A DNA stretch of 23,267 bases from a virus. The DNA lies in the IMG/VR virus record IMGVR_UViG_3300000115_000097, positions 9,801-33,067 of that record; one strand, 5' to 3'. Shown here one piece after another: positions 1,228 to 20,600 of the stretch (its first letter is position 1; each line of letters begins with the position of its first letter). Made by a program: the position numbers and the translations under genes. A model generated the notes under the pieces. It worked only from the letters and a program-made list of their open reading frames with translations. It searched no databases and was not told the origin of the DNA.

Positions 1228-1235
1228 TATTTATG
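1228..1235 (-). promoter_or_regulatory. T4-type late promoter octamer CATAAATA for the minus-strand gene
   Basis: On the minus strand the sequence reads CATAAATA, then 5 bases, then ATG. It matches the T4 late consensus TATAAATA at 7 of 8 positions; T4 late promoters need only this -10 element. In T4, transcription starts about 5-7 nt after the octamer, which here falls at or next to the start codon. Confidence 0.6.
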
Positions 1236-1245
1236 GGGCGCAGTT

Positions 1246-1253
1246 TATAAATA
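1246..1253 (+). promoter_or_regulatory. Perfect TATAAATA octamer upstream of gp25
   Basis: An exact match to the T4 late promoter consensus on the plus strand, 121 bases before the gp25 start. If used, it would give gp25 a leader of roughly 115 nt containing the palindrome and repeat at 1278-1300. No long reading frame follows it directly. Confidence 0.5.
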
Positions 1254-1277
1254 CAGCTAAAGTTATGAATAATATCG

Positions 1278-1300
1278 TGTTATAACATGTAGTATAACAT
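1278..1300. repeat. Short palindrome and direct repeat (possible operator)
   Basis: TGTTATAACA at 1278-1287 is a perfect 10-base palindrome. TATAACAT occurs at 1281-1288 and again at 1293-1300, a 12-base spacing, close to one helical turn. Such a site could bind a dimeric regulator, but it is AT-rich and could be chance. No copy was noticed elsewhere in the window. Confidence 0.25.
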
Positions 1301-1361
1301 TAAGTGATTAGACTTTTTCAAAAAATACGAACATCCACCCTGTTTAAAGCGAGGTTGCTTG

Positions 1362-1369
1362 ATTAAATA
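1362..1369 (+). promoter_or_regulatory. Late-promoter-like octamer ATTAAATA before gp25
   Basis: ATTAAATA differs from TATAAATA in its first three bases but keeps the AAATA core. It ends 5 nt before the GTG start of gp25, the same spacing as the minus-strand gene's octamer. The same variant octamer stands 6 nt before the other GTG-started gene (17602-17609). Confidence 0.45.
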
Positions 1370-1374
1370 AACTT

Positions 1375-1857
1375 GTGATTAAGTTAGATATACTAAAGCA
1401 GCCCGATTCTGAAGAGCGTGCTCTAGAAAAGGGGTATCTTTATAAGGACTTAAAAATGGACTTAGAATTCTCACGCTACATACGTGAGGAGTTATATGCA
1501 GAATCAGAGCCTAGAGATCTTAACGAGTTATTAAATGAGCAGGCAGTATTTAACTCAGTAAAAAATATACTTTCAACTTCTCCCGGTCAAAAGCTGCTTA
1601 ATCCCACGTTTGGGTTAGACCTACGTGATTACCTATTTGAGCCTATATCTTCTCGAGTAGCATTTTTTATTGCGCAAGATATATACTTTAATCTAGGTAG
1701 GCAAGAACCACGTATAACTGTTAATGGTATTGAGATCACCACCGATGAAGATAATAATGAATACAATGTTGATATTTACTTTTCTGTTCCAACCTTGGAT
1801 GTTTACGGGCTAAACCTAAAAGGTTCATTAAATAAAGATGGATACGTACTAATATGA
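1375..1857 (+). CDS. 25: Baseplate wedge subunit gp25
   Basis: Small wedge protein of the gp25/GpW family (lysozyme-like fold without known catalytic activity) that joins the gp6 ring to the tube-sheath side of the baseplate. Family hallmarks are the N-terminal DLKMDLEF segment, the helix with NEQAVFNSVKNIL, the conserved turn PGQKLLNPTFGLDLRDYLFE, and a final beta-rich part (ITVNGIEITT, YNVDIYFSVP). At 160 aa it is somewhat longer than T4 gp25 (132 aa), with the extra residues at the N-terminus. The GTG start is the first possible one: an in-frame TGA lies at 1360-1362 and the next ATG is about 28 codons in. It overlaps gp6 by ATGA, which favours translational coupling. Confidence 0.92.
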   Translation: MIKLDILKQPDSEERALEKGYLYKDLKMDLEFSRYIREELYAESEPRDLNELLNEQAVFNSVKNILSTSPGQKLLNPTFGLDLRDYLFEPISSRVAFFIAQDIYFNLGRQEPRITVNGIEITTDEDNNEYNVDIYFSVPTLDVYGLNLKGSLNKDGYVLI

Positions 1858-3686
1858 GTTTACAAAATTATACAGACTTTAAATTACCGAAGGACGCTTA
1901 TTTAAGCTTCGATGCAAATTCTTTAAAAGAATTAATTATCGAGAGGTTAAATGAGAACGAAGTTTTCACAGATCAAAACTTTGAAGGTTCAAACTTTAAC
2001 GCGTTTATCGATGTTGTATCGTATATGTATCATGTTTTGTTGTTTTATCTAAACACTACATCTAATGAAGGTACATTTACCACAGCTACAATTTACGAAA
2101 ATATTAATAAAATTGTATCTAACCTAGGCTACAAGCCTCTTGGAGATCAGACAAGTATTCTTAATATCAGTCTAGAAGCTACTGGTCTAAACTCAGGTGT
2201 TTATACTATTCCAAAGTTTTCTCTTCTTAATGTCGGTAGTATAACATACCACACCTTACAAGATATTCTATTTGAAAAGACAAATGGAGCAGCTCGTGAA
2301 ACCTTAGAGATTAGTAACGATATTTTATATCAAGGCTCCATAAAAGAAGCCACCTTTACAGCATCTGGTGAAGAATACGAAACATTTACTTTAATTGATG
2401 CTTATACATCTCCACAAATAAAGACTAAAGTTACCGACGCAGCAAATAATTTTATTGCAGATAACTCTTTTGTACTTTATGTGCGAGATAGTGTAACTGG
2501 TGAATGGTCACTATGGGAAGAAACAACCTCTCTATTTACTTCTGAGCCGTTTAATTCGTGTTATGAAAAGCGTTTTAACCATGATGGTAATTATGAGTTT
2601 AAATTCGGTGATGGTAACAATGGCCGCTCTCTTAAAGCTGGAGATACTGCAGTAATCTTTTATCTTGTCTCTGATGGTGAGGCAGGTATTATTGGTAAGA
2701 CAGCTATTAACGGTAAGAACTTTAATTTATATTCTTCAACGCTATTTGATCAAATAAAGAGTCAACTATATACTAATATAGACGAATCTTCTCTTATCGT
2801 ACCGGCGGATCTACCATTAATTAGTACTTCTAATCAATATGCTTCAACACCAATAAGGTCAGCTGAGACGGTTGATGAGATAAAGAAGAACGCGCCTAAG
2901 ATGTTTTCTGCTCAGGACAGGTTAGTAAGTAAACAGGATTACGAAAATCTTATTAATAGAGAGTTTAATAATGTAACAAGACCTGTAAAGGTACTATCAA
3001 ATGATGAGTATACATCACAAGTCTTGTTTTACTATAATAAGATCGGACTATCACAAGGTATAGATGATTCTAGAACCTTGTTAGCACAAGTTAATTTTTC
3101 TACATCAACTAACTTTAATAATATATATGTATATACTGTTCGGACAAACGAGATGGTTATTGATGAGAGACTACCAAACTATCTAAACGAAGGGCAAAAG
3201 CGTTTAATTATCGATTATTGCAATGATAAAAAAGACATCACACATAATGTCGTCATATCAGATCCTATTTTTAAAGCTTTTAGCTTCGGTGTAGGTGAGA
3301 TTACCGATACAAATACCATAGATGATATAGTGAGAAACACCTTTTTACGTATTGATGTGGATAGAAATGTGGCAATAAGTGATGCCGGTGTACGCTCCAA
3401 GATAGCAGCTATATTTAAAGCAGCATTTATAAATTTAAATCTAGGTGATCTAGTAGATATTGCACAAATAACACGTGATATTCTTAATATTGATGGCGTG
3501 GAGGGTATTGAGACTGTTAATGGTAATAATGTTACACCTAACCTTAGTTTCGTTATATGGAATCCGGATTATAGGACACAAGATAGTGTAATACTCACCA
3601 GAGATTATAAGCTTCAAAACTTCGAGTATGGATACTACTACGGTATATCTGATATACCTACAAATATTGATATACGGAGAATTTAA
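1854..3686 (+). CDS. 6: Baseplate wedge subunit gp6 (baseplate J-like)
   Basis: Core wedge protein; in T4, gp6 dimers form the continuous ring that holds the six wedges together and drives the hexagon-to-star change. At 610 aa it is close to T4 gp6 (660 aa). Around residues 245-275 it has the FGDG strand-turn with NNGRSLKAGDTAVIFYL that is typical of baseplate J-like proteins. About residue 346 it has APKMFSAQDRLVSKQDYE, the strongest family signature, followed by the dimerisation-type domains (TRPVKVLSNDEY, LIIDYCNDKKDITHNVVI, VRSKIAAIFKAAF). The start ATG overlaps the gp25 stop (ATGA), so the pair is probably translated together. No promoter octamer lies directly upstream, in keeping with operon expression. 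Confidence 0.93.
   Translation: MSLQNYTDFKLPKDAYLSFDANSLKELIIERLNENEVFTDQNFEGSNFNAFIDVVSYMYHVLLFYLNTTSNEGTFTTATIYENINKIVSNLGYKPLGDQTSILNISLEATGLNSGVYTIPKFSLLNVGSITYHTLQDILFEKTNGAARETLEISNDILYQGSIKEATFTASGEEYETFTLIDAYTSPQIKTKVTDAANNFIADNSFVLYVRDSVTGEWSLWEETTSLFTSEPFNSCYEKRFNHDGNYEFKFGDGNNGRSLKAGDTAVIFYLVSDGEAGIIGKTAINGKNFNLYSSTLFDQIKSQLYTNIDESSLIVPADLPLISTSNQYASTPIRSAETVDEIKKNAPKMFSAQDRLVSKQDYENLINREFNNVTRPVKVLSNDEYTSQVLFYYNKIGLSQGIDDSRTLLAQVNFSTSTNFNNIYVYTVRTNEMVIDERLPNYLNEGQKRLIIDYCNDKKDITHNVVISDPIFKAFSFGVGEITDTNTIDDIVRNTFLRIDVDRNVAISDAGVRSKIAAIFKAAFINLNLGDLVDIAQITRDILNIDGVEGIETVNGNNVTPNLSFVIWNPDYRTQDSVILTRDYKLQNFEYGYYYGISDIPTNIDIRRI
3676..3680 (+). promoter_or_regulatory. Shine-Dalgarno site GGAGA for the PKD protein
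   Basis: GGAGA lies 8 nt before the ATG at 3689, inside the last codons of gp6. It is the clearest Shine-Dalgarno sequence at any start codon in the window; most other starts have none. Confidence 0.6.
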
Positions 3687-3688
3687 TT

Positions 3689-6187
3689 ATGGATCAAGAT
3701 GATTTGACAGGTAATACAGAGACCGAGTTTTTCTTTTATTACACAGTATTAGATGCAACAGGTAATGAGACGCTTTCTAGTTATACACTCGATGCAACAC
3801 CCTTAACTTTTATACCAGAAAAAAGTGAAGAATGGCCGGGTGAATATTCTAATAAGCGCATTGTTTGGGATTTCGGTGATGGTACACGTACCGAGACTGT
3901 TACTGGTAGTCATGTTTATAAAACACCGGGTAAATATAGAATTCGTAGTTATGTATATAATAACAGCGGTGTAAGCTTTCGCAACTCTAGATCTGTTCTC
4001 GTAGAAATTAAAGATATAATAGAGGATAGAGTTCTTATCGATATAGATAGATCGCAATGTGGTATTGAGCACCTTACGAGTGAAATCACAAACCCTATTA
4101 ACGTAACTCAGTTTAACTCAAGTAGATCGTTTAATGCGGGTGGTCACTTACCACCTGTAGTTACATATATTGAACCTAAGAGCTTTACGACAGATTACGG
4201 TTATTTTTCTACTAATTTAAATACAGCTACTTACGGACATCTTATACCAACTTATAAATTTGTGCAGGATATAGGTGGCGTAGAAACAATACCAATTAGT
4301 TCTATTCAAGTCACAGAATATGACAGTATATATGCGTATATATCCGGAGGACAGGTTCTAACAACAACGAGTCAAAAAGAAGGGTCAGAGTTTGCTGGTG
4401 TATCGAGCAGTAATAACGTCTATTTTGTTAGCGATATACCAGGCTTATATAACTTACTGTTCGGCTTTGAGCAAGGATCTATATTTAAACATATTAATAC
4501 CACTACCTACGGTACATCAGCAAAGATTTGTGATAACCTTGCTTACGATTATTTGGGTATAACATCTAATGGTATTGATGGCGAAAATATACCTATTGAC
4601 ACCTTTAATATAAACGATGTAAAGTTTTCTTGTACAAAGATACCATTTGTAGTTCAAATAAAGGACAACGAAGGATACTCACAGAGATCACTACCTCTCT
4701 TAGAGCTCGACCCTCTATTAGGTTATTGTATACAAACAGAGTCACTAACATCTACGATTATTGGTGAGAGTTTTGATTATCATCTTAATACAGAAGATAG
4801 CGCGCATATTCCAATTAAGTTACGCTTAACAGATAAGTATAACACTACTTACCCAGCCCTTTTTACTACAAACTTTAACGACCTTTCTTCTATTCTTGTA
4901 CCAGGTTACTTTCCCGGTTATGCAGGTGGATTTTTTAAAGGTCATTTTATTATTGATTCAGAAGATAAAATAATGGAGGATGTGTGGATAGAGGCTACAA
5001 CTACATACGACAACTTCCCACTTTCCGGAGCGAGTAATAAGTTTAGTATATACCCGAAAGATCATTATATTGTCGCAAAGCAGGGTGAAGATATAAACTT
5101 TGAAGAGGTGTTTCAAGATGTTACTACACAGCCATTGTTTGATGATACTAAAATTCTTATAAATGATTTTCTTACTAGTATATTTGGCAATATTGAATCA
5201 GCTCAAACCTCTATTGGTAAAAGCACATACGAAAAAATACAAAATTTTGCGGATAATCACAGTTCTATCGATTACTCTAATATTGATCAGCTAGCAGCAA
5301 TCCTCGAGTCGTATAACTTACCTAAGATTAACAAATATACAACACCTCCGAACGTTAAAAGGTTGCTTGATATTTTATCAATTAGTATGGCGCGCCTATT
5401 CGGTGATAAAAATCAAAACACAGAAGATTATTCTCCTTATGGTTATATTGATAATGCTTGCTATGGTACAGATAGATGCGCAGAAATACCTGACGATGGT
5501 GTAGTTTTTGCAGGGCATGATATTGTTGCTTTTGAAAAGTTTAGTGGTAAGTGGGTGACTCTAAATACGATGCTTCCTTTATGTGCAAGTACACCACCTC
5601 AATTAAAATCGTGGTATCTTGACCCTGTAGAAGGTATAGACTATGAAAGTTGTTTTAAGTTTGCAAAATGTAACCCGATTTTAACTGAAACATCAATATC
5701 TGCAATTGAATTAGAGGGCGAATACTTTAACTTATGCCTTGAAGGTGATTATAATGTGGATGGAGTATTTTCTTCTTATACAAAATATTATCAATTAAGT
5801 GATTATAACGATTCATGGGGCTGGCCACTTATTCTAGATAGGGATGGTACATTGTTTGATGTATATAAGTTTTATTATAAAACTTCAAAAGAAAACACTA
5901 AGCTTGAAGCCTCGGTTATCAATTTTGAAGATAAAAATAACACTATAGAGCAGGATTATACATACGAAGAGTGGTCAAGACCTAACGGTATAATGTCAAA
6001 TATTTTTGCAAATTCATTATACAGTGGTTTAGGTTTATTTACATGTGAGGAAAGTGGTCCAATTTTCTTATACCTTAGACCAGATGGTGTAAGCTGGTAT
6101 ATAAGATACTATGATCCAAATCCACCTTGTTATATTGAAGTTAACCCACCTGCAGATAATTCAATCTACGTAAGGCCGTTCAACTAA
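3689..6187 (+). CDS. Large virion protein with N-terminal PKD domain, probable baseplate component
   Basis: An 832-aa protein that starts 2 nt after gp6. Residues about 45-115 form a PKD (polycystic kidney disease) Ig-like domain: IVWDFGDGT, HVYKTPGKYRIRSYVY and SRSVLVEIKD are its typical strands. The middle is beta-rich with no family I can name. Residues about 490-580 are helical, including VKRLLDILSISMARLFGDKN. The C-terminal third is beta-rich with many aromatics (WYLDPVEGIDYESCF, YLRPDGVSWYIRYYDPNPP) and several cysteines. No signal peptide or membrane segment is visible. T4 has gp7 (1032 aa), the outer wedge protein, directly after gp6; position and size make this a candidate structural counterpart, but I see no T4 gp7 motif, so that is inference. 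Confidence 0.8.
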   Translation: MDQDDLTGNTETEFFFYYTVLDATGNETLSSYTLDATPLTFIPEKSEEWPGEYSNKRIVWDFGDGTRTETVTGSHVYKTPGKYRIRSYVYNNSGVSFRNSRSVLVEIKDIIEDRVLIDIDRSQCGIEHLTSEITNPINVTQFNSSRSFNAGGHLPPVVTYIEPKSFTTDYGYFSTNLNTATYGHLIPTYKFVQDIGGVETIPISSIQVTEYDSIYAYISGGQVLTTTSQKEGSEFAGVSSSNNVYFVSDIPGLYNLLFGFEQGSIFKHINTTTYGTSAKICDNLAYDYLGITSNGIDGENIPIDTFNINDVKFSCTKIPFVVQIKDNEGYSQRSLPLLELDPLLGYCIQTESLTSTIIGESFDYHLNTEDSAHIPIKLRLTDKYNTTYPALFTTNFNDLSSILVPGYFPGYAGGFFKGHFIIDSEDKIMEDVWIEATTTYDNFPLSGASNKFSIYPKDHYIVAKQGEDINFEEVFQDVTTQPLFDDTKILINDFLTSIFGNIESAQTSIGKSTYEKIQNFADNHSSIDYSNIDQLAAILESYNLPKINKYTTPPNVKRLLDILSISMARLFGDKNQNTEDYSPYGYIDNACYGTDRCAEIPDDGVVFAGHDIVAFEKFSGKWVTLNTMLPLCASTPPQLKSWYLDPVEGIDYESCFKFAKCNPILTETSISAIELEGEYFNLCLEGDYNVDGVFSSYTKYYQLSDYNDSWGWPLILDRDGTLFDVYKFYYKTSKENTKLEASVINFEDKNNTIEQDYTYEEWSRPNGIMSNIFANSLYSGLGLFTCEESGPIFLYLRPDGVSWYIRYYDPNPPCYIEVNPPADNSIYVRPFN

Positions 6188-6192
6188 AAGTG

Positions 6193-6200
6193 TATAAATA
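6193..6200 (+). promoter_or_regulatory. Perfect T4-type late promoter TATAAATA
   Basis: An exact consensus octamer in the 19-base gap between the PKD gene and the 1639-aa gene, ending 6 nt before the ATG. A T4-like start site would lie at or within a base or two of the ATG. No Shine-Dalgarno sequence is present. Confidence 0.7.
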
Positions 6201-6206
6201 TTAAAT

Positions 6207-9200
6207 ATGGCAGATAGACTTCCAACACCGGTCCCGCTACGTAAGAACTTTTTTTGTTCTAAAATCACTGCGATGCCAGAGATTGAGGTTATAAAGAATG
6301 AAGTAACGACAGGACCGTATACAGAGGGTGATACAATTACTTATGAAGTTAGTGTTATCAATACCGGTGAGCGTAGCTTATCAGGCTCCGTTTTGGTTGA
6401 CTCATTATCACCTTTAAATGTTAAGCGAGATCCACTGGGGTTATTTGAAGGAGGTGTTTGCATTACCCCAGGATGGGTAACGAGAGTAGTTTATGATTAT
6501 ACAGTTACTATAGAAGATTTACAGGGACCATACATTACAAACATAGCATGCTTATCATCAGACATGCTCGGGTCGCTTGTTTTACAAAGAGAAGATGAAG
6601 AGACTCCGGTTACTACCGAAGCTTTATCGAGTATTAATTTATACCAAACACCTAATGTTGCGTGTGATGGTACACGTTCTGTACTACTGCAACCGGCTAT
6701 TGCAGATATTAATAAAACAGTTATATCAACCGGACCATATACAGCAGGTGATTCAATCACTTACAGAATAGATGTTCATAATATAGGCGGAAGTAATTTA
6801 GAGTTTGTTAGAGTTTTAGATACACAACAAACTTCTATTAATATAGTAAGCGATATATATAACCTATTTGGTGGTAATGTAACAATTCCACCTGACAGTG
6901 TCTTTTCTACCACATATGATTACGTAGTTACGACAAAAGATATGGAGGATGGTGTAGTGTTTAACTCTGCGTCAGCAATTTCTAATGTCGCGCTAGTGAC
7001 TGATTCTGTTGGCAATATAAATATAACAAAGCCATCTTTACAAGTCAGTAAGACCGTAACATCACTCGGTCCTTACACGTTTAGTAATATTATATCCTTT
7101 AATGTAGAAGTTAGTAATACGAGTGATGTTAACTTAACTAATGTAAAGCTTACAGATACACTACAGTCGAGTATCTTTAATATAGAAGATGTATATGATC
7201 TCTTAATTGGTGGTGTTACAATACCACCAAATGAAACGTATTCAATATCATATGATTATAGAGTGACAGCGAACGATGTATTAGTAGGATCACTATCAAA
7301 CGCGGCCGTGGTTGATTCAAGCGCTCCAACAGTTACAGCTACAGTAGATGATATACAAATATATACTGCTGATATATTAATTAATAAAGAAATTGAGGCA
7401 CCTGGCCCATATACAATTGATGATACAATAACGTATCTTATTAGTGTAATAAATCCGAATGCTATTGAGATATACGACGTTACATTAACTGACACCTTAC
7501 AGCAGGACATATCTATTTTAAGTGATCCATATAACCTCTTTACTGGTAATACGACTATACCTGCAAATACAACAGCAGTAGTGAAGTATAATTACACTGT
7601 AACGCAAGATGACCTTAGCACAGGAACAGTATCAAACTCTGCCTTTGTTGTATCTCTTAATAGTGATGCATATGATATGGTTGATGGTATTGAGATTCTT
7701 GAACCTGGTAATATAACTATAAGAAAAAATTTAATATCAATACCACCTACAATTACTAGACCGGTAGATGAGACGTTAAACATTAACGGTAGTGTACAAA
7801 GCTTGCTTACTGGTGGTTCGTTGATAACTACAAATATACCAATATCATCATTTATATATTACGAGCCAAAGTGGTCTTTACTTAACGATAGCACGGTCAA
7901 ACATAAAGGTTCTATTGGTGGTTTACAAATTGATGATAATGTATCTTGTACTGAGAGCTCATCAGCCGGCCTCAACAGCCAGTCCCTCAACTTCGACATT
8001 ATACCTGGCACAGTAGCAAACACACAGAGGTTAAGCACATACTGGACTGCTGCAGCACAGACAGTATGTGGGCCGGGAGTTGATGTTAATTATAATACAC
8101 GAGCATACTTTACACCTCGTGAACTTCGTAGGTTCTTTATAAGTTGGGCTACATTTCCAAACGCAACAAGCTTCTCAAATGCTTCCGATTTTCAAGGTCA
8201 GGCGCTCGATGAAGATCCATGGTTGATTAATATAACTGATTATGGATCTGTTACAGCCAGAAAGACATCGCCTACAAGTAGTAGAAATGCGCCCTTGTCA
8301 GTGTTACCTACAACATACGGTGACCCTTCACACACTCTATCATTACCATATCATGAAGCTAGGGTAACGTTTGAGTGGCCAACGCTTATTTTTGGCGCCG
8401 ACGCATCGTTTACCACTAGTAGTATATACGACACGAGATGGTCTGCTTACCCTTACAGCTCCCTTACATCTCCTTTTACTGCAGCAAGTATAGAAGGTAT
8501 ATATGATGATCCGGATTTTCCTGCACCTCTATGGCCGATTACTAATGGTTATTTAAGTGGGCCTCAGAGTAGTGGCATAAACTTTTACGTTCACATGGAT
8601 GAAGGTGAAGTATCAGGTGAGTATTCAAGAGGTGATCTGCTTGTATATAAGGTCGTATTAGAAAATACAGGTGGCATGCCTGTGAGTGAAATAGAGCTAC
8701 GTGACACTCTACCTGATATAACTATAGTTGAAGGTCAGGAGTTATTTGATGGTGGTGTTACATTAGCCGGATATACAAGCGCAGAAGCAGTTTATACGCG
8801 TAGAGTTACAAGCGATGATGTATTTAATAAAACTGCAATTGATAATACTGCTATTGTTAATACATCACTTGGCTCAAAACAAGATACATCTTCTATATCA
8901 AACATATACAGGCCAGGTCCTGGTGAGTTATCTGTTACAAAGACAATATCAGAATATTCTAGTGACCCGGTAAGGGCTGATGTAGGTGATATACTTACAT
9001 ATAAGCTGGAAATTACAAACGTTGGTGAGCTACCTGTTAGAGATATTAATATTGAAGATAACAGAGTTGATAGTAATATTTTAGATCTTTATCAAGGCGC
9101 GACTATTAACCAAGATGAAAAGTTAACTATTTTATACCCATATGTGATCACATCTACAGACACATATGATCTCTCTGCTATTGAAAATACTGTATGTGTA

Positions 9201-11126
9201 ACTGGGTTAACTGGGGGTGATTATTCCGGTGAAGTTCCAGAGCGTACATTACCGGTATGTGATGAAGCTAGATTTACTTACTTCAATCAACCCAGCCCAT
9301 TTACTACAGAGTGGGAAATAGAAACAGAAGGTGTTGTAGATTTTAGATTACAATATCATTCTAATATTAATGGAGTGCGTAACGTTCCATCGACTGGTAC
9401 AAAACTAGAATATGATTTTACTATAGATTGGGGCGACGGTACAGACCGTGAACATTATACACAATCGGAAAGACATTATAGTGAAGGTGGCGCTTTAATT
9501 TCTCACACATACCCCTCGCATGGTGACCCTACACAGACATATGAAATTAGGATATGGGGAACGTTCCCTTCATGGGCTTTAACAACAAGTTCAAAACAAA
9601 AGATAACTAAGCAACTTGCGTATGGAGAGACCGGGTTATGCTTAAACGCTCTTTATTATGGCTGTTCTAACTTTGTCGAGTTTAATGCCGGCAGCAAAAA
9701 AATACCGCTAGATATAGTTGTTGGTGGTACAACAGGTACAACGACACCCCGCTCACTCTATAGAACCTTTGGTTATACAGGTCTCACGTCATTTAGTTTT
9801 GATCAGTGGGACGTTAGTGATACATATGACGATATTTGGAATTTATACGGGACCTTTGAAGGCTGTACAAATTTAACAAGTATAGATACAACACATATAC
9901 AGAATGGTGATATACGTGATTTAACAAAAACTTTTTATAAGTGTACTAATTTAGCAGCTGTTGATGTTACAAACTGGGACGTAAGTAACTGTAGTAGGTT
10001 TCTTATGTTATTCCGTGATTGCGTATCTCTAGCTTCACCTAATTGTAGTCTATGGAACTTTAACCGTTGTAATGATACATCGTTTATGTTTTCTAATACG
10101 CGGTTTACAACGCTCGATACCAGTAATTGGTACTTTCCGGTCTTCAATACCGGTGGTATAGGTACTTTCGGCACTGCTACCGCGATGTTTAATAGCTGTA
10201 TAAACCTTACTACACTCGATCTAACAAATTGGGGTGATATGTCACGTGTAAATACAAGATCAATGTTTACTGATTGTGGTTCTATTAATAATCTTGATAC
10301 AAGGAACTGGAAGATTACAACAACAGGACAAGGGCGCTATCAAAACAATATGTTTAAGGGCTGTGGTTCTTTAGAGTATCTTAATACGGATAACTGGTTC
10401 ACGACCGGGAACTTAAACAATCTTCATGGTATGTTTGAGGCTTGCACAAGTTTAAGATCGCAAGGAACTGATATAAATACTCAGCATCCTCATGGAATAA
10501 ACGTAAGTAACTGGAACGTTAGTAATGTTGTCAATGCAGATGAGGCTTTTGCAGGTTGTAGAGCGCTAACTACACTCGATGTTAGTAATTGGAACTGGTC
10601 AAAAACAACTGGACTAGAAAACTTGTTTCAAAATTGCATTAATTTAATTGATCCGATTGATATATCGGGTTGGGATATGAGTAAAGTAACAAGTATAGCT
10701 GGGATGTTTAACGGTTGTCAATCAATTACCACTCTTGATGTATCAAGTTGGGATACCTCGTCGATTGCAGGTATGAATAGTCCATTCGGTGGTTGTATAT
10801 CTCTAGTAAATTGCGATTACAGCGGTTTTAATATTACAAGTGTACCGGATAATTACTATACCCCTACAAGATTAAATTCCTTTTTCAGTGGCCCGGATGT
10901 TTCAACCAATCAAAAGGTATTAGCTGATGCATACGTAAATTGGTACGCACAAAAGCTTGACGCTGAAGCGAATAGTACACCATTTCCACATAAAACAGCG
11001 TTCAATGTAGGATCCTTACGATTTGATACAACACATAACCCTAATGCGCCGGCGGCTCGTGCTGCGTTAGACGGACCTGCAGGGTTTAATGTACTATGGA
11101 ACCTAACCGACGGTGGCTCTGTTTAA
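6207..11126 (+). CDS. Giant modular virion protein: DUF11 repeats, PKD-like WGDG domain, BspA-type repeats
   Basis: At 1639 aa this is the largest gene here and probably a surface-exposed tail or baseplate fibre. Modules in order: DUF11-like Ig repeats at about residues 25, 166, 278 and 388 (each about 110 aa, opening with a K-V, GPYT, GDxITY pattern and closing with YDYxVTxxD and N-A); an unrecognised region, about 500-790; two more DUF11-like repeats at about 792 and 908; a PKD-like domain with YDFTIDWGDGT near 1070; then about 12 BspA-type repeats (DUF285) at 1217-1560 with the pattern FxGCxxLTTLDVSNWDxS. DUF11 and BspA repeats are best known from bacterial surface proteins; BspA proteins bind host matrix or other cells, so adhesion is a reasonable inference. 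There is no LPXTG, signal peptide or membrane segment, consistent with a virion protein. Base composition rises within the unrecognised block (see findings). Confidence 0.85.
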   Translation: MADRLPTPVPLRKNFFCSKITAMPEIEVIKNEVTTGPYTEGDTITYEVSVINTGERSLSGSVLVDSLSPLNVKRDPLGLFEGGVCITPGWVTRVVYDYTVTIEDLQGPYITNIACLSSDMLGSLVLQREDEETPVTTEALSSINLYQTPNVACDGTRSVLLQPAIADINKTVISTGPYTAGDSITYRIDVHNIGGSNLEFVRVLDTQQTSINIVSDIYNLFGGNVTIPPDSVFSTTYDYVVTTKDMEDGVVFNSASAISNVALVTDSVGNINITKPSLQVSKTVTSLGPYTFSNIISFNVEVSNTSDVNLTNVKLTDTLQSSIFNIEDVYDLLIGGVTIPPNETYSISYDYRVTANDVLVGSLSNAAVVDSSAPTVTATVDDIQIYTADILINKEIEAPGPYTIDDTITYLISVINPNAIEIYDVTLTDTLQQDISILSDPYNLFTGNTTIPANTTAVVKYNYTVTQDDLSTGTVSNSAFVVSLNSDAYDMVDGIEILEPGNITIRKNLISIPPTITRPVDETLNINGSVQSLLTGGSLITTNIPISSFIYYEPKWSLLNDSTVKHKGSIGGLQIDDNVSCTESSSAGLNSQSLNFDIIPGTVANTQRLSTYWTAAAQTVCGPGVDVNYNTRAYFTPRELRRFFISWATFPNATSFSNASDFQGQALDEDPWLINITDYGSVTARKTSPTSSRNAPLSVLPTTYGDPSHTLSLPYHEARVTFEWPTLIFGADASFTTSSIYDTRWSAYPYSSLTSPFTAASIEGIYDDPDFPAPLWPITNGYLSGPQSSGINFYVHMDEGEVSGEYSRGDLLVYKVVLENTGGMPVSEIELRDTLPDITIVEGQELFDGGVTLAGYTSAEAVYTRRVTSDDVFNKTAIDNTAIVNTSLGSKQDTSSISNIYRPGPGELSVTKTISEYSSDPVRADVGDILTYKLEITNVGELPVRDINIEDNRVDSNILDLYQGATINQDEKLTILYPYVITSTDTYDLSAIENTVCVTGLTGGDYSGEVPERTLPVCDEARFTYFNQPSPFTTEWEIETEGVVDFRLQYHSNINGVRNVPSTGTKLEYDFTIDWGDGTDREHYTQSERHYSEGGALISHTYPSHGDPTQTYEIRIWGTFPSWALTTSSKQKITKQLAYGETGLCLNALYYGCSNFVEFNAGSKKIPLDIVVGGTTGTTTPRSLYRTFGYTGLTSFSFDQWDVSDTYDDIWNLYGTFEGCTNLTSIDTTHIQNGDIRDLTKTFYKCTNLAAVDVTNWDVSNCSRFLMLFRDCVSLASPNCSLWNFNRCNDTSFMFSNTRFTTLDTSNWYFPVFNTGGIGTFGTATAMFNSCINLTTLDLTNWGDMSRVNTRSMFTDCGSINNLDTRNWKITTTGQGRYQNNMFKGCGSLEYLNTDNWFTTGNLNNLHGMFEACTSLRSQGTDINTQHPHGINVSNWNVSNVVNADEAFAGCRALTTLDVSNWNWSKTTGLENLFQNCINLIDPIDISGWDMSKVTSIAGMFNGCQSITTLDVSSWDTSSIAGMNSPFGGCISLVNCDYSGFNITSVPDNYYTPTRLNSFFSGPDVSTNQKVLADAYVNWYAQKLDAEANSTPFPHKTAFNVGSLRFDTTHNPNAPAARAALDGPAGFNVLWNLTDGGSV
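6280..7700 (+). repeat. Four tandem DUF11-like repeats in the 1639-aa protein
   Basis: Repeat starts lie near 6280, 6702, 7038 and 7368, a period of about 330-420 bases. The most similar stretch at DNA level follows the GPYT codons (near 6312, 6732 and 7404). Two more diverged copies begin near 8580 and 8928, and a further copy begins near 23167 in the last gene. Confidence 0.75.
9855..10880 (+). repeat. BspA-type (DUF285) repeat array
   Basis: About 12 repeats of roughly 25-35 residues, each with a phenylalanine then a Cys (FEGC, FYKC, FRDC, FNSC, FTDC, FKGC, FEAC, FAGC, FQNC, FNGC, FGGC), followed by a leucine-rich strand and usually an NW motif (LTTLDVSNW, LTTLDLTNW). One unit lacks the Cys (FSNTRFTTLDTSNW). 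Leucine-rich-like solenoids of this kind present an extended ligand-binding face. Confidence 0.85.
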
Positions 11127-11173
11127 TAGTGATGCGTTTTTGGATAATATTTGATTGAAAACTACAACAAAGT

Positions 11174-11181
11174 GATAAATA
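11174..11181 (+). promoter_or_regulatory. Late promoter octamer GATAAATA
   Basis: Located in the 65-base gap after the 1639-aa gene, ending 10 nt before the ATG at 11192; 7 of 8 bases match TATAAATA. No Shine-Dalgarno sequence and no terminator hairpin is visible in the gap. Confidence 0.6.
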
Positions 11182-11191
11182 TATTCATACA

Positions 11192-11899
11192 ATGCCTGAG
11201 TCACTCGAAAACACCAATATAAGTACAACTTATAAGTCTCTCATCCACACAAAGGATGCACAACTACCTACAAATGGTCAGACGGCTATTTACGATGGTA
11301 TTGGTAATGAGAGCTCTCTATCCTTTGGCGTTAGCGGTAGTGGTTTAACGGTTTCCGGTGAGGTAGTCGCTGACTCACTTACATTAAGAGGGAGTGGTTT
11401 AGGTATTACAGAAGAACTAAACGATACTATCTTAAATTTAATTTACCCTGTTGGTTCAATTTATCTTTCTATTGGTAATATTCAACCTGACACGTTATTT
11501 CCAAACACACAGTGGCAGCGTATATCACAAGGTAAATTTATTGCTGGTGTTGGAACTGGTATGGATACTAATAGCAATACCGCCACTATATCCGCTGGAG
11601 ATGATAGAGTTATACCTGTTGAGCATTCAGGTACTTATGTACATACGCTTTGCGCAGAAGAGATGCCGAGTCATACACATACCATAAAGACAGGTGAAGA
11701 TGTATTTTCTACAGTAGATAACTCAGCAGACGAGGAAGGTAATTATGTTGTAGTAGCAAGTGACGTATCGGGTGGAGCAGCTGAGAGCTTTATAGGTAGC
11801 GACCAATCACGTGAGATACTCACAACAGAAGGTAGTAACGAGTCACATAATAACATACCGCCATGGTTTGGCGTTTATGTTTGGAAAAGAATAAACTAA
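11192..11899 (+). CDS. Tail protein with gp10-C/collar-like C-terminal domain
   Basis: A 235-aa protein. The N-terminal part (about 1-75) has a pattern common in T4-like phage fibre proteins (TTYKSLIHTKDAQLPTNGQT, then AIYDGIGNESSLSFGV). From about residue 85 it enters a domain with the signatures of the T4 gp10 C-terminal / phage tail-collar group: LIYPVGSIYLSIGNIQPDTL, TQWQRISQGKFIAGVG, the MPSHTHTI histidine motif and the ending NNIPPWFGVYVWKRIN. In short tail fibres and related proteins the SHTH-type histidines can bind metal in the trimer; only the motif is visible here. Probably a trimeric baseplate or short fibre component. It is followed 7 nt later by the first fibre paralogue. Confidence 0.85.
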   Translation: MPESLENTNISTTYKSLIHTKDAQLPTNGQTAIYDGIGNESSLSFGVSGSGLTVSGEVVADSLTLRGSGLGITEELNDTILNLIYPVGSIYLSIGNIQPDTLFPNTQWQRISQGKFIAGVGTGMDTNSNTATISAGDDRVIPVEHSGTYVHTLCAEEMPSHTHTIKTGEDVFSTVDNSADEEGNYVVVASDVSGGAAESFIGSDQSREILTTEGSNESHNNIPPWFGVYVWKRIN

Positions 11900-11906
11900 A
11901 AAGATC

Positions 11907-13178: not shown

Positions 13179-13193
13179 TAAACTTTAAAATAA

Positions 13194-15389
13194 ATGGCAC
13201 AAGAAAATAAAATTGAAATCTTTGAAAATACCCTATTAAAGCTCCTACTTAGAAGAGGTTCTGATCTTGATAGGCAGCAGATAGTCCTTACTGAGGGCGA
13301 GCTCGGCTACACCGTTGATACACGTCGAGTATATGTTGGTGATGGTGAAACAAAAGGCGGTGTTATTGTTGGAAATAAGTTCTTAGGTAGTGTCAATACA
13401 TCAGAATTAGCCAGCTTAACACAAGCTGTCTCTGGTGACACGGCATTCGACCAAGAAGAAAAGAAACTATACACATTTCTAGGTGGGCCAAACTCAACAT
13501 GGTTACAGGTAGCAGATCAAACTAATGACGGTACTGGTGTAGATGTGTTGCAAGCAGAGAAAGATGCTTGGGATGATAATTATAGCTGGACTAATACACA
13601 AAGCTCAAACTGGCTGTCAAGTTCCGCGCAAATAAGTGATAGCGCGCCAGTAAATCCTGCTACAGGTGATTTTTGGTTTAACTCTGATGTAAATAAGTTG
13701 TTTGTCTACAGTGACGGTACCGGTTGGGTTGAAGTTAGTGGTAGTGGTGTATCTATGCAAACAAGCGAGCCTACTAATCCATCAAATGGAGATTTTTGGT
13801 TTGATACTGCAGCTAGCGCGCTGTATATATACTCAGCTAGTACATGGGTCCGTATTAGTGGTTTAGATAATTCGTCAAATATTACAGTTCAGACTATTAA
13901 CGCGACAGGTGAGATTACTTCAGCTAGTTTAGACACAGATACTATTAACGCTGATACAGTAAATGCTAGTACAGTAAATGCGGACGCTATTAATATAAAT
14001 GGTAGTTCAGTTATAACTGCTAATACTCTTTTGACTGGTGTTAAAAATAAGGTTACTAATGGTAACTTCGATGTATGGCAGCGCGCTACAGAGTACGAGC
14101 AAGGTTCGAGTGAGTATTACCCTGGCACAAGAAAGAAATTCACAGTCGATACAAACGGTAAGTTCTATAGACAAGTTATAGTTGCAGATAGAATGGCAAC
14201 CGGAGTGTCGGGAAATAATACCGGTACTTGGAAAGCTTCTCGTAAAAATTGTACAACAACTGAGCTAGAAAATTTTAATGCCTCTCACTATATGAGGCTG
14301 GAAACAAATGGGATTACCTTTAGTGAAAACCCTAATGTGAGTATCGATACAGGTGTTGATGGTAAGCTATGTTTACAAGGCATTGAAGATGCAGTGGCAA
14401 TGTTAGGTAAGACAGTAACATTATCGTTTTGGGCTAGAGCGTCACAAAATACAAAGATGGTTAATGACCCACAGATTCATGCTAAGAGCTGGCGTCAATC
14501 TGATACGGAGGGGGTATGGACACCATCTGCAAATAAGACTTTTGATATAACAACTACATGGCAGAGATTTACTCACACTTGGACGATTCCAACATATGAG
14601 CTGATCCAAAGCCATGGTTATAGCTCATCCAACGTAGAATTGCTAGATAAGCTAGCTAACAATGAGGACGTTACAAGTATAGAAACTCTAGTAAATGAGT
14701 TTGGTATAAGTAAGTTACCTCTTTTACAAGATCTAAGCTATGAATTTGATCTTAAGATACTTTGGAGTCGGGCAAACTGGAAGAGACATGGTACGCAATT
14801 AAATCCACGGCCTGCAGGCTTTGGCTTAGGTCAAACAGAAGCAGATATGGAAGCCATGAATGACGCGTTCATCACGGATGGTTGGTATGATATAGCTCAA
14901 ATACAACTAGAAGAAGGTGAGATAGCCACTGCATTCGAACATAAGCCATATAGAGAAGAACTAGAGGCGTGTCAAAGATTTTATGCAAAGAGTTTTGATC
15001 AACATGTCATTCCTGGCGACGGTACTAGACAATTACGTGGTAGAGTACATACACATACTGCAGAAGCTGTTAGACCTGTAGCTCATACGGTTGAGTTTAA
15101 CTGGCCTGTTACATTAGCATCTTATCCACGAATAGTTACATCATATAACCCGATAAATAATATAACAGACACAATATATATTAATACCGAAGGTGTAACT
15201 GATGCTAATGAGCTTTACAACACCACATTACTAAATACCTTCTCCGGTGTAGCTTTTAGTGATGCAGGTGAAACAGGATTTAGCTCATGTAATTTAGATG
15301 ATTGGCGTGGTACACCTCTTGAAGGTAATGATAATGCGTTTAGATTTTTAAACATGCATGTTACTGCGGAGGTTTCATACGGGTGGTAG
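13194..15389 (+). CDS. Tail fibre-like protein with Mtd_N-like adapter and sugar-binding-like domain (paralogue 2)
   Basis: A 731-aa protein. The adapter, about residues 15-65 (LLRRGSDLDRQQIVLTEGEL then GYTVDTRRVYVGDG), is clearly paralogous to that of the preceding gene. Two tandem units follow (about 150-183 and 191-223) with the pattern P-x-N-P-x-x-GDFWF-x-LYIY-x-W-V-x-I-SG. Next is a low-complexity NADTVNASTVNADAININ stretch, then from about 285 a jelly-roll-like region (KVTNGNFDVWQRA, ADRMATG, VTLSFWARASQNT, WQRFTHTWTIP, YDIAQIQLEEGEIATAFEHK) resembling carbohydrate-binding domains of phage fibres. The last 130 residues, after REELEACQRFYAKSF, probably form the distal tip. This is the best candidate receptor-binding protein in the window. 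The start ATG at 13194 lies 15 nt after the previous stop without a Shine-Dalgarno sequence. Confidence 0.85.
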   Translation: MAQENKIEIFENTLLKLLLRRGSDLDRQQIVLTEGELGYTVDTRRVYVGDGETKGGVIVGNKFLGSVNTSELASLTQAVSGDTAFDQEEKKLYTFLGGPNSTWLQVADQTNDGTGVDVLQAEKDAWDDNYSWTNTQSSNWLSSSAQISDSAPVNPATGDFWFNSDVNKLFVYSDGTGWVEVSGSGVSMQTSEPTNPSNGDFWFDTAASALYIYSASTWVRISGLDNSSNITVQTINATGEITSASLDTDTINADTVNASTVNADAININGSSVITANTLLTGVKNKVTNGNFDVWQRATEYEQGSSEYYPGTRKKFTVDTNGKFYRQVIVADRMATGVSGNNTGTWKASRKNCTTTELENFNASHYMRLETNGITFSENPNVSIDTGVDGKLCLQGIEDAVAMLGKTVTLSFWARASQNTKMVNDPQIHAKSWRQSDTEGVWTPSANKTFDITTTWQRFTHTWTIPTYELIQSHGYSSSNVELLDKLANNEDVTSIETLVNEFGISKLPLLQDLSYEFDLKILWSRANWKRHGTQLNPRPAGFGLGQTEADMEAMNDAFITDGWYDIAQIQLEEGEIATAFEHKPYREELEACQRFYAKSFDQHVIPGDGTRQLRGRVHTHTAEAVRPVAHTVEFNWPVTLASYPRIVTSYNPINNITDTIYINTEGVTDANELYNTTLLNTFSGVAFSDAGETGFSSCNLDDWRGTPLEGNDNAFRFLNMHVTAEVSYGW
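13644..13862 (+). repeat. Two tandem GDFWF repeats in fibre paralogue 2
   Basis: Units of about 33-41 residues share PVNPATGDFWF / PTNPSNGDFWF and end WVEVSG / WVRISG. This motif is common as short spacers in fibre proteins of tailed phages. Confidence 0.7.
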
Positions 15390-15421
15390 GTTATTATATT
15401 ATGGGACTATAAGGTGGTATG

Positions 15422-15429
15422 AATAAATA
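15422..15429 (+). promoter_or_regulatory. Late promoter octamer AATAAATA
   Basis: Located in the 51-base gap after fibre paralogue 2, ending 11 nt before the ATG at 15441; 7 of 8 bases match TATAAATA. The AT-only palindrome at 15426-15437 overlaps it and is too weak to be a terminator. Confidence 0.55.
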
Positions 15430-15440
15430 ATATTATTATC

Positions 15441-15653
15441 ATGCTATCAAAGACAAAAGCATATACACTCCTAACTGAGTTTACCGATGTTATTCTAGAA
15501 GATGACAAGCGTGGTAGTTTAATAGTGTCTATACAGCAAGAGCATCTTAAGACTATTTGCTATGAACTACGTAAGTTTAATTTAAGGTTAGTTCATAAAA
15601 CTAAGACAAGTGATAAGGGTTCATACACTTTAGTTTTTCTGATTCATGAATAA
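15441..15653 (+). CDS. Unrecognised 70-aa protein
   Basis: A small protein with no recognised family. The sequence alternates predicted strands and a helix (GSLIVSIQQ, then a helix around LKTICYELRKF, then NLRLVHKT and GSYTLVFLIHE), so a compact alpha-beta fold is plausible. It is rich in lysine and aspartate, with one cysteine and no signal peptide or membrane segment. It has its own octamer 11 nt upstream and lies between two fibre-type genes in the same direction. Its stop region contains the next gene's octamer. Small genes among phage fibre genes are often assembly factors, but nothing in the sequence shows that here. Confidence 0.65.
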   Translation: MLSKTKAYTLLTEFTDVILEDDKRGSLIVSIQQEHLKTICYELRKFNLRLVHKTKTSDKGSYTLVFLIHE

Positions 15654-15656
15654 ATA
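15649..15656 (+). promoter_or_regulatory. Late promoter octamer AATAAATA overlapping the 70-aa gene's stop
   Basis: The octamer overlaps the TAA stop at 15651-15653 and ends 10 nt before the ATG at 15667. The bases between are almost all A, with no Shine-Dalgarno sequence. Confidence 0.55.
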
Positions 15657-15666
15657 AAAGAAAATA

Positions 15667-17571
15667 ATGACCTACCCAAATACATTATCAGTATCTGCCG
15701 CAGCCGTTAATATTAGCGATGGTGCCTTCTCACCACTGTATGATATTGTATGGTCTGTAAAGTATGAAGTTATAAACTGGAATAAAACCGATGATTATGG
15801 TTTATGTTTGTTCCTGAGAGATAGTAGTACGGCATTATCCGGTGAGGGCGGCGGTCGTGGTATAGATCTTGGTTACTCTGGCACTGCAAGTGTTAATACA
15901 AATGAGCCTGATGTAGAGGTAAATGGTATGGTAGGGGGTGTTATTGGAGTTGGTTTAGATACTCACGGTCTATTTGCTGCTGAAACAACCTGGCCAGGTG
16001 GCAGAGCTAGATCCGGTATTGATGACCTAGAAACGAACTCTATTACTATGAGGGGCGGTGCAGAAGATGATTTTGAGTATCTGAACGTGCATTATCCAAT
16101 TTCTGCATTTAAATTATTGAGTAACGGGCAGAAAATATTAAGAGCTCGGTTAGGTAATTACGGTCGGACGATTTTTATTGATTATAGGGGTGTTGGTGAT
16201 ACAGATTTTATTAATATTTTAACAGAAGATGTTAACCTCAACATATTACCAGGTACAAAACTCACGCCTGGTGTTTCCTTCGTTAAGCCCTTAACATCAA
16301 CGAACATGTCGTTTGATATTATTGTCGACACCTTTCATATTGAAGGTACAGAAACAGAACCTGAAGTTACAACAGAATACCCTGAACCACTACTACCAAT
16401 CGAGTGTAATTCTGTGTATGGTGGGGAGGTTATTCTTGAAAAGCCAGATGTTAATTTCCCAATAATACCTCCAATTAAGGATGTTACAATGTGTGAAGTA
16501 GCTAAAAACGCAAATCTAACCTTAACTGTAGATGCACCAACTAGTGTGCAGTCGAGAGGTGATATTATTACATATAAAATACAGGTAGAGAACAATAGCT
16601 CACAAAGAGCAGAAAATGTTATTGTATATAACAGCGTTACAAATGCAGAAAGGTTATCCGCGACGGGTGACACCTTCTTATTTACTAGTGGTGGTGCACT
16701 GTCCGCTGGGTCTACGTACAGTGTTGAGTTTTCGTATATAGTTAATGGTACAGAGGGAGAAGAGCATCAGACAACGACTACGGTGACTAGTCTATATGAT
16801 GAACCGAAGAGTGTACAGACGGCTGTACCTATCAAACTAGATCAGTTTAAGTTTAAAATAGATACAAACAAAGGATCAGGTCGCACTTTTGTACTACCTC
16901 TAATCGCTAGCGGTGCTTATGATATAAATGTCGACTGGGGTGATGGGTTTAATAATGATATAACCGAATACAACTCACCAGATGTGATTCATAAATATAA
17001 CGTAGACGGTATATATACAATTACTATTTCAGGTCAATTATCAGGGTGGCAGTTTGGTAATGATGCACACTTTAGTAAGCTACAGTATATCGATACATTA
17101 GAATGGACCGGTCTCTACATAACAACTAATGCTGCATTCAGTGGGTGTGCAAACTATACAGGTAAAACCACTGCCATAGGCGCGCCAACAATAAGTACAA
17201 CAGACTTGAGTTATACCTTTGCTGAGTGCGCGCAATTCAATGGTGTAATTAACAATTGGAATATATCTAATGTAGAAAATATAGAGTATATGTTTACACA
17301 GGCTTATAAATTTAACCGCGAGTTAAATGATTGGAATGTAAGCTCCTTAACTACTGCCGAGAACTTCCTATCTGGTGGTGATGATTATGCGTTCTCAATC
17401 ACAGCATATGATAAAACGCTGTTAGGTTGGTATAATTTATCTAAGAACGTAGCTACGTTCCCTGATAGTGTAAGACTAGATGTTAAGCAGTATCATAAGA
17501 AAGAAACCGCTTATAATCAACTTAGTAATAAACATAGCTGGGTAATTAATGATCTAGGTCACCGAGATTAG
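15667..17571 (+). CDS. Lectin-like, DUF11, PKD-like and BspA modular fibre protein
   Basis: A 634-aa protein. Residues about 1-230 look like an L-type (legume lectin, concanavalin-like) beta-sandwich: YGLCLFLRDSSTALSG with a glycine-rich loop, then VIGVGLDTHGLFA, then ARLGNYGRTIFIDYRG. About 275-390 is a diverged DUF11-like Ig repeat (RGDIITYKIQVENN, YSVEFSYIVNG). About 400-465 is a PKD-like domain with YDINVDWGDG and HKYNVDGIYTITISG. About 490-575 are three or so BspA-type repeats (FSGC, FAECAQFNG, NNWNISNVENIEYMF, NDWNVSS). The last 60 residues resemble the capping region of BspA-type phage proteins. The WGDG+BspA order repeats that of the 1639-aa protein. No signal peptide. Likely role: glycan or surface binding at the tail. 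Confidence 0.82.
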   Translation: MTYPNTLSVSAAAVNISDGAFSPLYDIVWSVKYEVINWNKTDDYGLCLFLRDSSTALSGEGGGRGIDLGYSGTASVNTNEPDVEVNGMVGGVIGVGLDTHGLFAAETTWPGGRARSGIDDLETNSITMRGGAEDDFEYLNVHYPISAFKLLSNGQKILRARLGNYGRTIFIDYRGVGDTDFINILTEDVNLNILPGTKLTPGVSFVKPLTSTNMSFDIIVDTFHIEGTETEPEVTTEYPEPLLPIECNSVYGGEVILEKPDVNFPIIPPIKDVTMCEVAKNANLTLTVDAPTSVQSRGDIITYKIQVENNSSQRAENVIVYNSVTNAERLSATGDTFLFTSGGALSAGSTYSVEFSYIVNGTEGEEHQTTTTVTSLYDEPKSVQTAVPIKLDQFKFKIDTNKGSGRTFVLPLIASGAYDINVDWGDGFNNDITEYNSPDVIHKYNVDGIYTITISGQLSGWQFGNDAHFSKLQYIDTLEWTGLYITTNAAFSGCANYTGKTTAIGAPTISTTDLSYTFAECAQFNGVINNWNISNVENIEYMFTQAYKFNRELNDWNVSSLTTAENFLSGGDDYAFSITAYDKTLLGWYNLSKNVATFPDSVRLDVKQYHKKETAYNQLSNKHSWVINDLGHRD

Positions 17572-17601
17572 AAGTATTTCTTTGCTTAAGGCATATATTA
17601 T

Positions 17602-17609
17602 ATTAAATA
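17602..17609 (+). promoter_or_regulatory. Late-promoter-like octamer ATTAAATA before a GTG start
   Basis: Located in the 44-base gap after the lectin-like gene, ending 6 nt before GTG at 17616. It is the same octamer variant that precedes the other GTG-started gene, gp25. No Shine-Dalgarno sequence is visible. Confidence 0.45.
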
Positions 17610-17615
17610 TATACA

Positions 17616-20600
17616 GTGAAAAAGTATTGTAATAAGGCGGTATATAACAGCACAAGAGAAATATGCTTTCCTGAGGTTACATATCCCGACAGTACTAGGC
17701 GCATTAAACAATATAGATCTAATCTAGAGCAGGGGTTTAGGGTTAACAATATTGCTGCGTTTGAAGAACTAAGAGATCAGAAAAATAATAACTTTAGCTT
17801 AAATTACCTTACAAACAGTAGCCTATTAACCGATCTTATTGAGTTGCCTACTAAAGCTACAGGGTTAGAGGTTATAACTACACCTCTTAGGTTTTTTGCT
17901 CCGGAAGATACTGTTGAAAAGAGAAATCTTTATATTTATAAACCGGATGGTGATAAGTCTCTTACACAGCGCGCGGTTGGTCTAGAGGATATTAATAGAG
18001 CCATCAAAAATAACTTTTATTTCGAGCTTGAAATATTAAATGATTACTTTTTACGTATTAGACATAATGATGGGTCGAACTACTTTTATATGCACTGGGA
18101 CGAAGCTTTAAATAAGTTTGTCTTCTTACGAGGTGAGGCTGAAATAGATAAGCTGGTTGAGACAAGTGATATGTTCAGATATAATATTGATGAATTTGGT
18201 AGGATGCATTTATTTAAATGCACAGATGAAAAGTTGTTTGTGATGTCTGCTAGTGAAACAGATATTATAATGGAACAAATTAAGCCTGATTTACGTTTCA
18301 GCGCGACCGGTGCAAATACTATCGCGATTAACTATAACTTTATAAATATAAACAACAGTCAAAACAATGATTTTGTAAATTACGAGGTAAATAAATTTAA
18401 TACGCTTACTATTAACCCACTTAAAAGTCTATTTAACCAGAAAGGTCAGTACCTTTTTCACTGCGAATATAATAGTCAAGATTTAAAGAAGTGTAGCTTA
18501 GAGTTTAACTTCTTTACTCTTGATACCAGTCGTTCTGAGTATGGATTTATTAAGAGAGGTACGAATACTTTAGATTCGTTTGATACTTTTCCTACATTTA
18601 CATATAGAAAGTATAATACTATCGATACAGGTGGTGATGAAGAGGGGGGACACGACAAAATGTCTTTAATTTACACCTTCTTTGATAAAGATATATACAT
18701 AGAAAGTGGTAGAACTACTGCATTTACAGCGCCGTCTTCTATATACCCCTTCGAGAAGCTTAATATTAATGATACTACATTCACTAAAAACGGTGCTTTC
18801 AGTGGACCATCACCAGCTTTATCGGATAAGTTCTACGTAAAGCAAAATCAACCTGGACATTATCAAAACGGTAGGTATTTATGTACATGGTTGTCAGCTA
18901 GTAGCCCTTTACAGCCGGCTGTGTGGGTTGATAGGTATTATTACCCTGATGCTGCATCAAAGTTTGACGCTTTAGGAGAAATACCTAGATACGTAACTTC
19001 TTTTACCGATAACGCTGATCAGGATGTTACATATAGTGATAGGTTAAGGCAGGATACTGCAGGAATAAAGTTTTTTGATAAAAAAAGTGACGCTGTTATT
19101 ACTCCAAACAGTCTTCTGAAGTATGAAAGGGTTGGAATTAGTGATATTAATAATATAATTAGCTCGTCTATGCCTTTAGCTTCGGGATTTGATAACTATC
19201 ATTATCAGGTCCTGCAAAGAGATATAGATAATACAGCAAATAGAAGTCTAGGTAAGATTACAGAAGATTTTTGTGTTGAATCATCGCAGAAGGAGCTATT
19301 ATTTGACGGGACATTCTATACAAAGTTAAGTGTGTATGAAGATATTAACAAAACTAAAGAATTTTCTCTATCTTTTGATGCAGACATAGATACTGACACA
19401 CAGTATGGCTATAAAATAATGGGTAATAGTGTAGGCTCAGGTTTTGGAGTGTTTCAGGACCGTACTATAACGCCATTCTTGCATATAGTTAACAAAAATG
19501 TGTTAAGAATATATAATACAGATGCAACACTACTAAATACTATAACGTTTCAATCAACAATAGAAGATGGTGATGAAAATATTAAGGATATATTTAGATT
19601 TGCAGCTCTAGAGGACTTTATCGTTGTAAGTGAGAGTGATAACTTTACTTTTATGTATCGAGTTGATGCGGAGGGTAATAAGAAAAGATTAGAAATAGAC
19701 TCTTCCGGTATATACGGTTATATTAATACATATATGGCTGTAGATCATATATTGTTCCTATTACCACTTAACAGAGTAAAAAAGCTTAATATATACACAC
19801 TTGAACTAACAGAATATACACTTGATGATGATTTAGTTGAAGAGTTTGACGAATATAAAGATTCAGCTGGTTTGGCATACTATGAAGGTGTTATTGAATA
19901 TAATAATAAGATATACCTACTTCCAGCGTGTGTGCATCAGCCAAAATGGTGCGGTGATGATATAATTTTTTATACAGTTCGATCTACAAATACAGAGCAG
20001 AAGCAATATGCTTTAATTAAGCACGACTTAAGACGTAACGAGGCAATTACGTTTTTAACATCAGATTGCCCGATATCTGATCTGATTGTTACTAATAGAG
20101 AACCAGTTAAGACGATTGTTATTGCTATTGGAAATACAACTCGCGAGTATAACACTAATGGTGTGTTTATAAACGCGGTCAATTATGATGAGCAATTAGA
20201 TTTTGGTCTAGTAGAAGGTGATGATACAGAGATACAGGATTTGCAAGGCGAGCTTAACACAGGTGATGTTATAACTAGTGAAATTATTGCTTTAGATATA
20301 GTAAACGAATACGTTCAGGGCGGTGTTGGTAACTTTAGTGAATTAGTGTTGTTTGCAAATAGTGATAACTCTGTCACATTAAATGCGCCTACAGGAGCGT
20401 CTGTACCCTTTGAAGGTGTAACCGCAGAAGGTCTAGTAGTAACGCCGATTACAAATTATAATACACTTAACCATATATACAGTAACAAAACTTTAGACTT
20501 TAAAATTACTCTCACAAATAAATACAATTCTGAAGATGTTCTTAACCGAGTAATTGAATTCGACCCGGCTCGAGTTGATAAAGGAAGGCATACCTTTACA

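Follow-up and report, generated by a model that had tools for sequence, protein, structure and literature searches.

Late transcription in bacteriophage T4 is a textbook system, and its mRNAs carry leaders with Shine-Dalgarno (SD) sites. Leaderless transcripts are found elsewhere among phages: one case is phiYS40, which infects Thermus and is not known to use the T4 late-promoter system, and the late transcripts of phiKZ are another. In phiYS40 both middle and late transcripts are made without leaders (PMC3594737). In Deinococcus-Thermus bacteria a -10 element adjacent to the ORF gives leaderless mRNA (PMC12340547), and in Flavobacterium johnsoniae transcripts are mostly leadered, 87% of them by over 10 nt (PMC6847099). 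The T4 late TATA box begins at -13, roughly one turn upstream of +1 (PMC2988020), gp55 contacts positions -12, -9 and -8 of the late promoter (PMC7892883), and the late promoter of cyanophages and pelagiphages is NATAAATA (PMC2984593). An octamer that begins at -13 spans -13 to -6, so that a gap of 5 nt between octamer and start codon places the start codon at +1. A search of the open-access literature gave no description of late mRNAs without leaders in phages of the T4 type. For the large family of uncultured T4-like phages described here, we consider it very probable that late mRNAs are leaderless or near-leaderless throughout and are transcribed from gp55-type octamer promoters, a conclusion reached without mapped 5' ends: the start site is inferred from the T4 register, and the translation mode and the host are likewise inferred.

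The stretch of DNA analysed (the window, 23,267 nt) corresponds to bases 9801-33067 of a 33,067-base T4-like virus contig (23 kb of 33 kb). Among the genes of the window is one for a clamp loader of T4-like type (lowest E ~1e-31 to T4-like phages). A preliminary description had placed octamers before seven of 12 start codons, and the coordinates, strands and spacings (5, 5, 6, 6, 10, 10 and 11 nt) were all found to be exact. On the minus strand CATAAATA (1228-1235) lies 5 nt before the ATG at 1222 of a 196-residue gene (632-1222, no Pfam match) that is divergent from gp25, and the baseplate wedge gene gp25 itself (1375-1857, plus strand, GTG start; identified by PF04965, E=1e-11, and tblastn) is preceded at the same distance by ATTAAATA (1362-1369). 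The remaining five octamers are also on the plus strand. TATAAATA (6193-6200) precedes by 6 nt the ATG at 6207 of a 1639-residue protein with matches to DUF7507, DUF11 and DUF285 (6207-11126), and a second ATTAAATA (17602-17609) precedes, again by 6 nt, the GTG at 17616 of a 1165-residue gene. The three wider spacings belong to GATAAATA (11174-11181), 10 nt before the ATG at 11192 of a protein with a Gp10 C-terminal domain, and to two copies of AATAAATA, one (15422-15429) 11 nt before the ATG at 15441 of a 70-residue gene and one (15649-15656) 10 nt before the ATG at 15667 of a DUF285 protein (15667-17571); the leaders predicted for these genes are 5, 6 and 5 nt, respectively. The starts without an octamer (1854, 3689, 11907, 13194 and 21113) overlap or trail an upstream gene with a gap of no more than 15 nt, as had been claimed, and include that of the operon-internal baseplate wedge gene gp6 (1854-3686, plus strand; weak Pfam match, below cut-off). 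Next to the baseplate genes are large proteins, surface or fibre-like, that contain DUF11, DUF7507 and DUF285 repeats (6207-11126 and 15667-17571).

The signal on the window contig lies in the position of the octamers and not in the overall abundance of TATAAATA. Only one of the seven window octamers is a perfect TATAAATA, and contig-wide the exact string is not enriched (7+4 copies; reversed string, 7+1). By distance to the start codon, [N][AT]TAAATA stands at 5-7 nt in four of the 18 genes of the 33-kb contig, where the rate inside genes would predict 0.03 (P=2.5e-8), and three further genes have the octamer at 10-11 nt. In a relative 71% identical (L013/L052), TATAAATAATAGT-ATG stands at the place of the divergent-gene octamer of the window, and octamer and spacing are kept at both gp25 and the divergent gene despite changed flanking bases.

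With gene starts assigned by a simple longest-ORF caller and [N][AT]TAAATA octamers counted by distance to the called starts, the window pattern recurs on a far larger scale in relatives, where the preliminary description had proposed that it be counted. In all 13 contigs of the clade (the window contig, G003, G015, G013, G010, G017, G005, G009, G016, G011, G012, G014 and G006) the spacing peaks at 5 nt, followed by 6 and 7 nt; chance would give counts of 0.01-0.27, and the P values run from 3e-5 to 8e-44; in the 75-kb relative G015, for example, 21 of 70 genes have an octamer at 5-7 nt (expected 0.12; P=2e-40). Among 407 genes at 74 further loci the octamer is at 5 nt in 64, at 6 nt in 82 and at 7 nt in 11. 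The variants seen have A, T or C at -12 and any of the four bases (A/C/G/T) at -13. With the same caller, octamers in T4, KVP40, Syn9 and S-PM2 lie mostly 12-50 nt upstream of starts. Pelagiphages are mixed, with an octamer at exactly 5 nt in seven genes of HTVC008M, six of Mosig and two of Melnitz (as in TATAAATAGTATT-ATG in an HTVC008M/Mosig gene of this kind) and the rest further upstream. In the cultured HTVC008M and Mosig (L080-L086, L096-L100) this 5-nt subset occurs among leadered genes, and bS21 is encoded.

A single orthologous gene gives the same picture. Of the 89 contigs in which a gp25 gene could be read upstream of gp6, the gp25 octamer is at 5 nt in 44 and at 6 nt in 37 (together 81 of 89), at 8 nt in one and at 9 nt in one, and is absent in six; several of these contigs are near-identical, and the counts are in part redundant. 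Within groups, gp25 N-termini show conservation from the called start codon on, which confirms the called starts.

The genes that carry the octamer are mainly those expected of late promoters. They encode sheath, tail tubes, hub, wedges, head proteases and virion and fibre proteins (one G013 octamer gene is endonuclease/regulator-like), and genes without it are mainly those for polymerase, helicase, endonuclease and dUTPase, a terminase gene being an exception; the structural share is 13 of 16 categorised octamer genes versus 1 of 6 non-octamer genes (Fisher P=0.01). The preliminary description had suggested a search for homologues of gp55 and gp33. A gp55 homologue was detected in the larger relatives G005, G009, G010, G013 and G017; the 33-kb window contig and G015, both of which are fragments, yielded none. 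Searches of the clade records detected no gp33 (phrog_254), which was found in pelagiphages. In the relatives inspected the gp55 homologue, of 146 residues, adjoins UvsW-like and gp47/gp46-like genes (neighbours named by eye from sequence, without a family search), and its C-terminus lacks the SLDFLYE-type sliding-clamp motif of T4. The homologues at L120-L124 end in EYDDND.

None of the seven octamer genes of the window has an SD-like run, in agreement with the original claim, and such a run precedes only one of 141 clade genes with an octamer at 5-7 nt. At the 74 further loci SD sites occur at 7.1% against a background of 7.2%; SD use in the clade is not above background. The corresponding values are 24-46% against a background of 2-9% in T4, KVP40, Syn9 and S-PM2, and SD use is 41-43% in pelagiphages. 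SD-like sequence is not wholly absent from the window, since the octamer-less start at 3689 has CGGAGA ~9 nt upstream, and in G015 SD-like sites precede 7 of 29 operon-internal genes versus 1 of 41 elsewhere (P=0.007), so that some hosts may make use of SD sites. Neither bS21 nor IF3 was found in the clade; bS21 is present in pelagiphages and Melnitz.

The large relatives contain a second promoter type with the same implied start site. Small early-type genes in G013, G010, G017 and G005 are preceded by TTAAAAAACTAGAATACAAT, in some cases with TTGACA further upstream. Exactly 6 nt separate the end of the -10 hexamer from the ATG in 32, 14, 9 and 10 genes, respectively. In G013 (L057-L066) a block of such genes, each with TTAAAAAACTAGAATACAAT ~6 nt before the ATG, extends over ~9-58 kb. 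The hexamer of sigma70 promoters ends at -7, which means that early and late promoters point to one and the same +1, the start codon. No gene in these four genomes has both octamer and early motif. The designation of these genes as early is inferred from promoter type and from their small, non-virion character, and the register is borrowed from sigma70 for the early genes and from T4 for the late genes, no transcript 5' ends being available for the lineage.

In the proposed mechanism, gp55-type octamers would place the start of transcription at, or 1-2 bases before, the start codon in the 5-7 nt class, and 5-6 nt before it in the 10-11 nt class of the window. With the promoter so placed, late mRNAs would be leaderless or nearly so, and the 5-6 nt leaders would be too short for an SD site. 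The ribosome is presumed to begin on a 5'-terminal AUG or GUG without SD pairing, and operon-internal genes may be reached through coupling or overlap. The leaderless prediction of the preliminary description is supported, with the qualification that the three 10-11 nt cases of the window would have leaders of 5-6 nt instead of none. Its view of a host tolerant of leaderless mRNA is still only inferred, as neither a transcript nor a host is known.

That the spacing peak is an artefact of start calling is scarcely tenable. The caller takes the longest ORFs and the octamer has stop codons in some frames, so that called starts could fall just downstream of the TAA it contains; because of this possible bias, permuted octamers of the same letters were tested, and they gave no peak, except for 1-nt-shifted overlaps of the same motif. 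The same caller moreover found zero octamers at 5-7 nt in T4, KVP40, Syn9 and S-PM2, and the conservation of gp25 N-termini from the called codon is likewise not expected of an artefact. It also appears highly improbable that the octamers are promoters of a host sigma factor and not of phage gp55. The likeness of TATAAATA to a -10 box and the missing gp55 in the window contig and G015 could be read in this way, but gp55 is present in the five larger relatives, all of which except G009 have, at other genes, an early promoter of a distinct sigma70-like type, and the octamer variants match known late promoters, with T/A at -13 as in T4 and C at -12 as in Aeh1.

The alternative raised in the preliminary description, that the octamer is not a promoter and is instead an A/T-rich translation-initiation signal of an SD-less host, similar to that of Bacteroidota (A at -3, -6 and -11 to -14), is in our judgement very unlikely. 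It would fit the background level of SD use in the clade, and in F. johnsoniae the enrichment of A at -14 to -11 and the helpful A at -3, -6, -12 and -13 overlap the octamer position (PMC6847099); the Rhodothermus phage RM378, with SD sites not above background, also has a start-anchored motif, TATTTAA. However, the octamer has fixed T positions, marks mainly virion genes and is mostly missing from operon-internal genes (2 of 96 in G013), the SD-using pelagiphages also have a sharp subset at 5 nt, and Bacteroidota-type TTG/TAnnTTTG promoters were looked for without any enrichment being found. The early genes also weigh against it: two unrelated sequences, never together at one gene, that imply one start site are unexpected for a translation signal and favour the promoter reading. 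The late-promoter, near-leaderless reading is supported in addition by the peak in the T4 register, the bias to virion genes and the gp55 of the larger relatives, and typical T4-like phages lack this arrangement. Beyond it, we put forward only tentatively, as possible and not as probable, that this widespread lineage combines early and late promoters that abut start codons, makes most first-gene mRNAs leaderless, and has a shortened gp55, no recognisable gp33 and possibly late transcription uncoupled from the clamp.

Candidate placements of the lineage and its host were examined and rejected. Membership of the Far-T4 group was ruled out, as the matches of G013 sum to 532 bits to RM378 versus 2728 to HTVC008M and 2724 to Syn9. 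In RM378 (L242-L244) the start-anchored motif is TTATTTAAA, 5-6 nt before ~11 starts. A host could not be taken from MAG contigs, the two closest matches being in conflicting bins (Lachnospiraceae and Paludibacteraceae). One 375-kb contig from a Paludibacteraceae MAG (L165) looks TAG-recoded, with TAG as a sense codon joining ORFs of up to 2934 residues. The tRNA and tmRNA genes present in G013 and G015 are uninformative on the host; G015 (L049:14706-15112) encodes a tmRNA with the tag AEAKLELV as well as seven tRNAs.

If the preferred reading is true, the lineage has kept a T4-type promoter and slid it onto the start codon, re-engineering expression for an SD-free host, and the spacing would provide a rule by which transcription starts and gene starts could be predicted in many phages not yet cultured, as well as a hint at host physiology. 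The likeness to T4 late promoters lies in the TATAAATA-type octamer, the lack of conservation at -35, the position upstream of virion genes and, in the larger relatives, a gp55 homologue with UvsW-like and gp47/46-like genes as neighbours. The clade differs from T4 in that its octamer is 5-7 nt from the start codon without an SD site, whereas that of T4 is mostly 12-50 nt away, in that T or C at -12 is common, and in a gp55 without the C-terminal clamp-binding motif together with an undetected gp33. Cyanophages share the octamer but have none at 5-7 nt. Pelagiphages also share it, and HTVC008M and Mosig share the 5-nt subset, but they differ in their leadered genes and SD use (41-43%); as these mixed-state phages are cultured, the prediction is testable now. 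Initiation in Bacteroidota is similar in making no use of SD sites and different in that the transcripts of F. johnsoniae mostly carry leaders. Compared with phiYS40, the clade places a T4-type late promoter at the start codon, and whereas the Deinococcus-Thermus arrangement concerns cellular genes and a host sigma factor, that of the clade consists of a phage late octamer and a phage early promoter.
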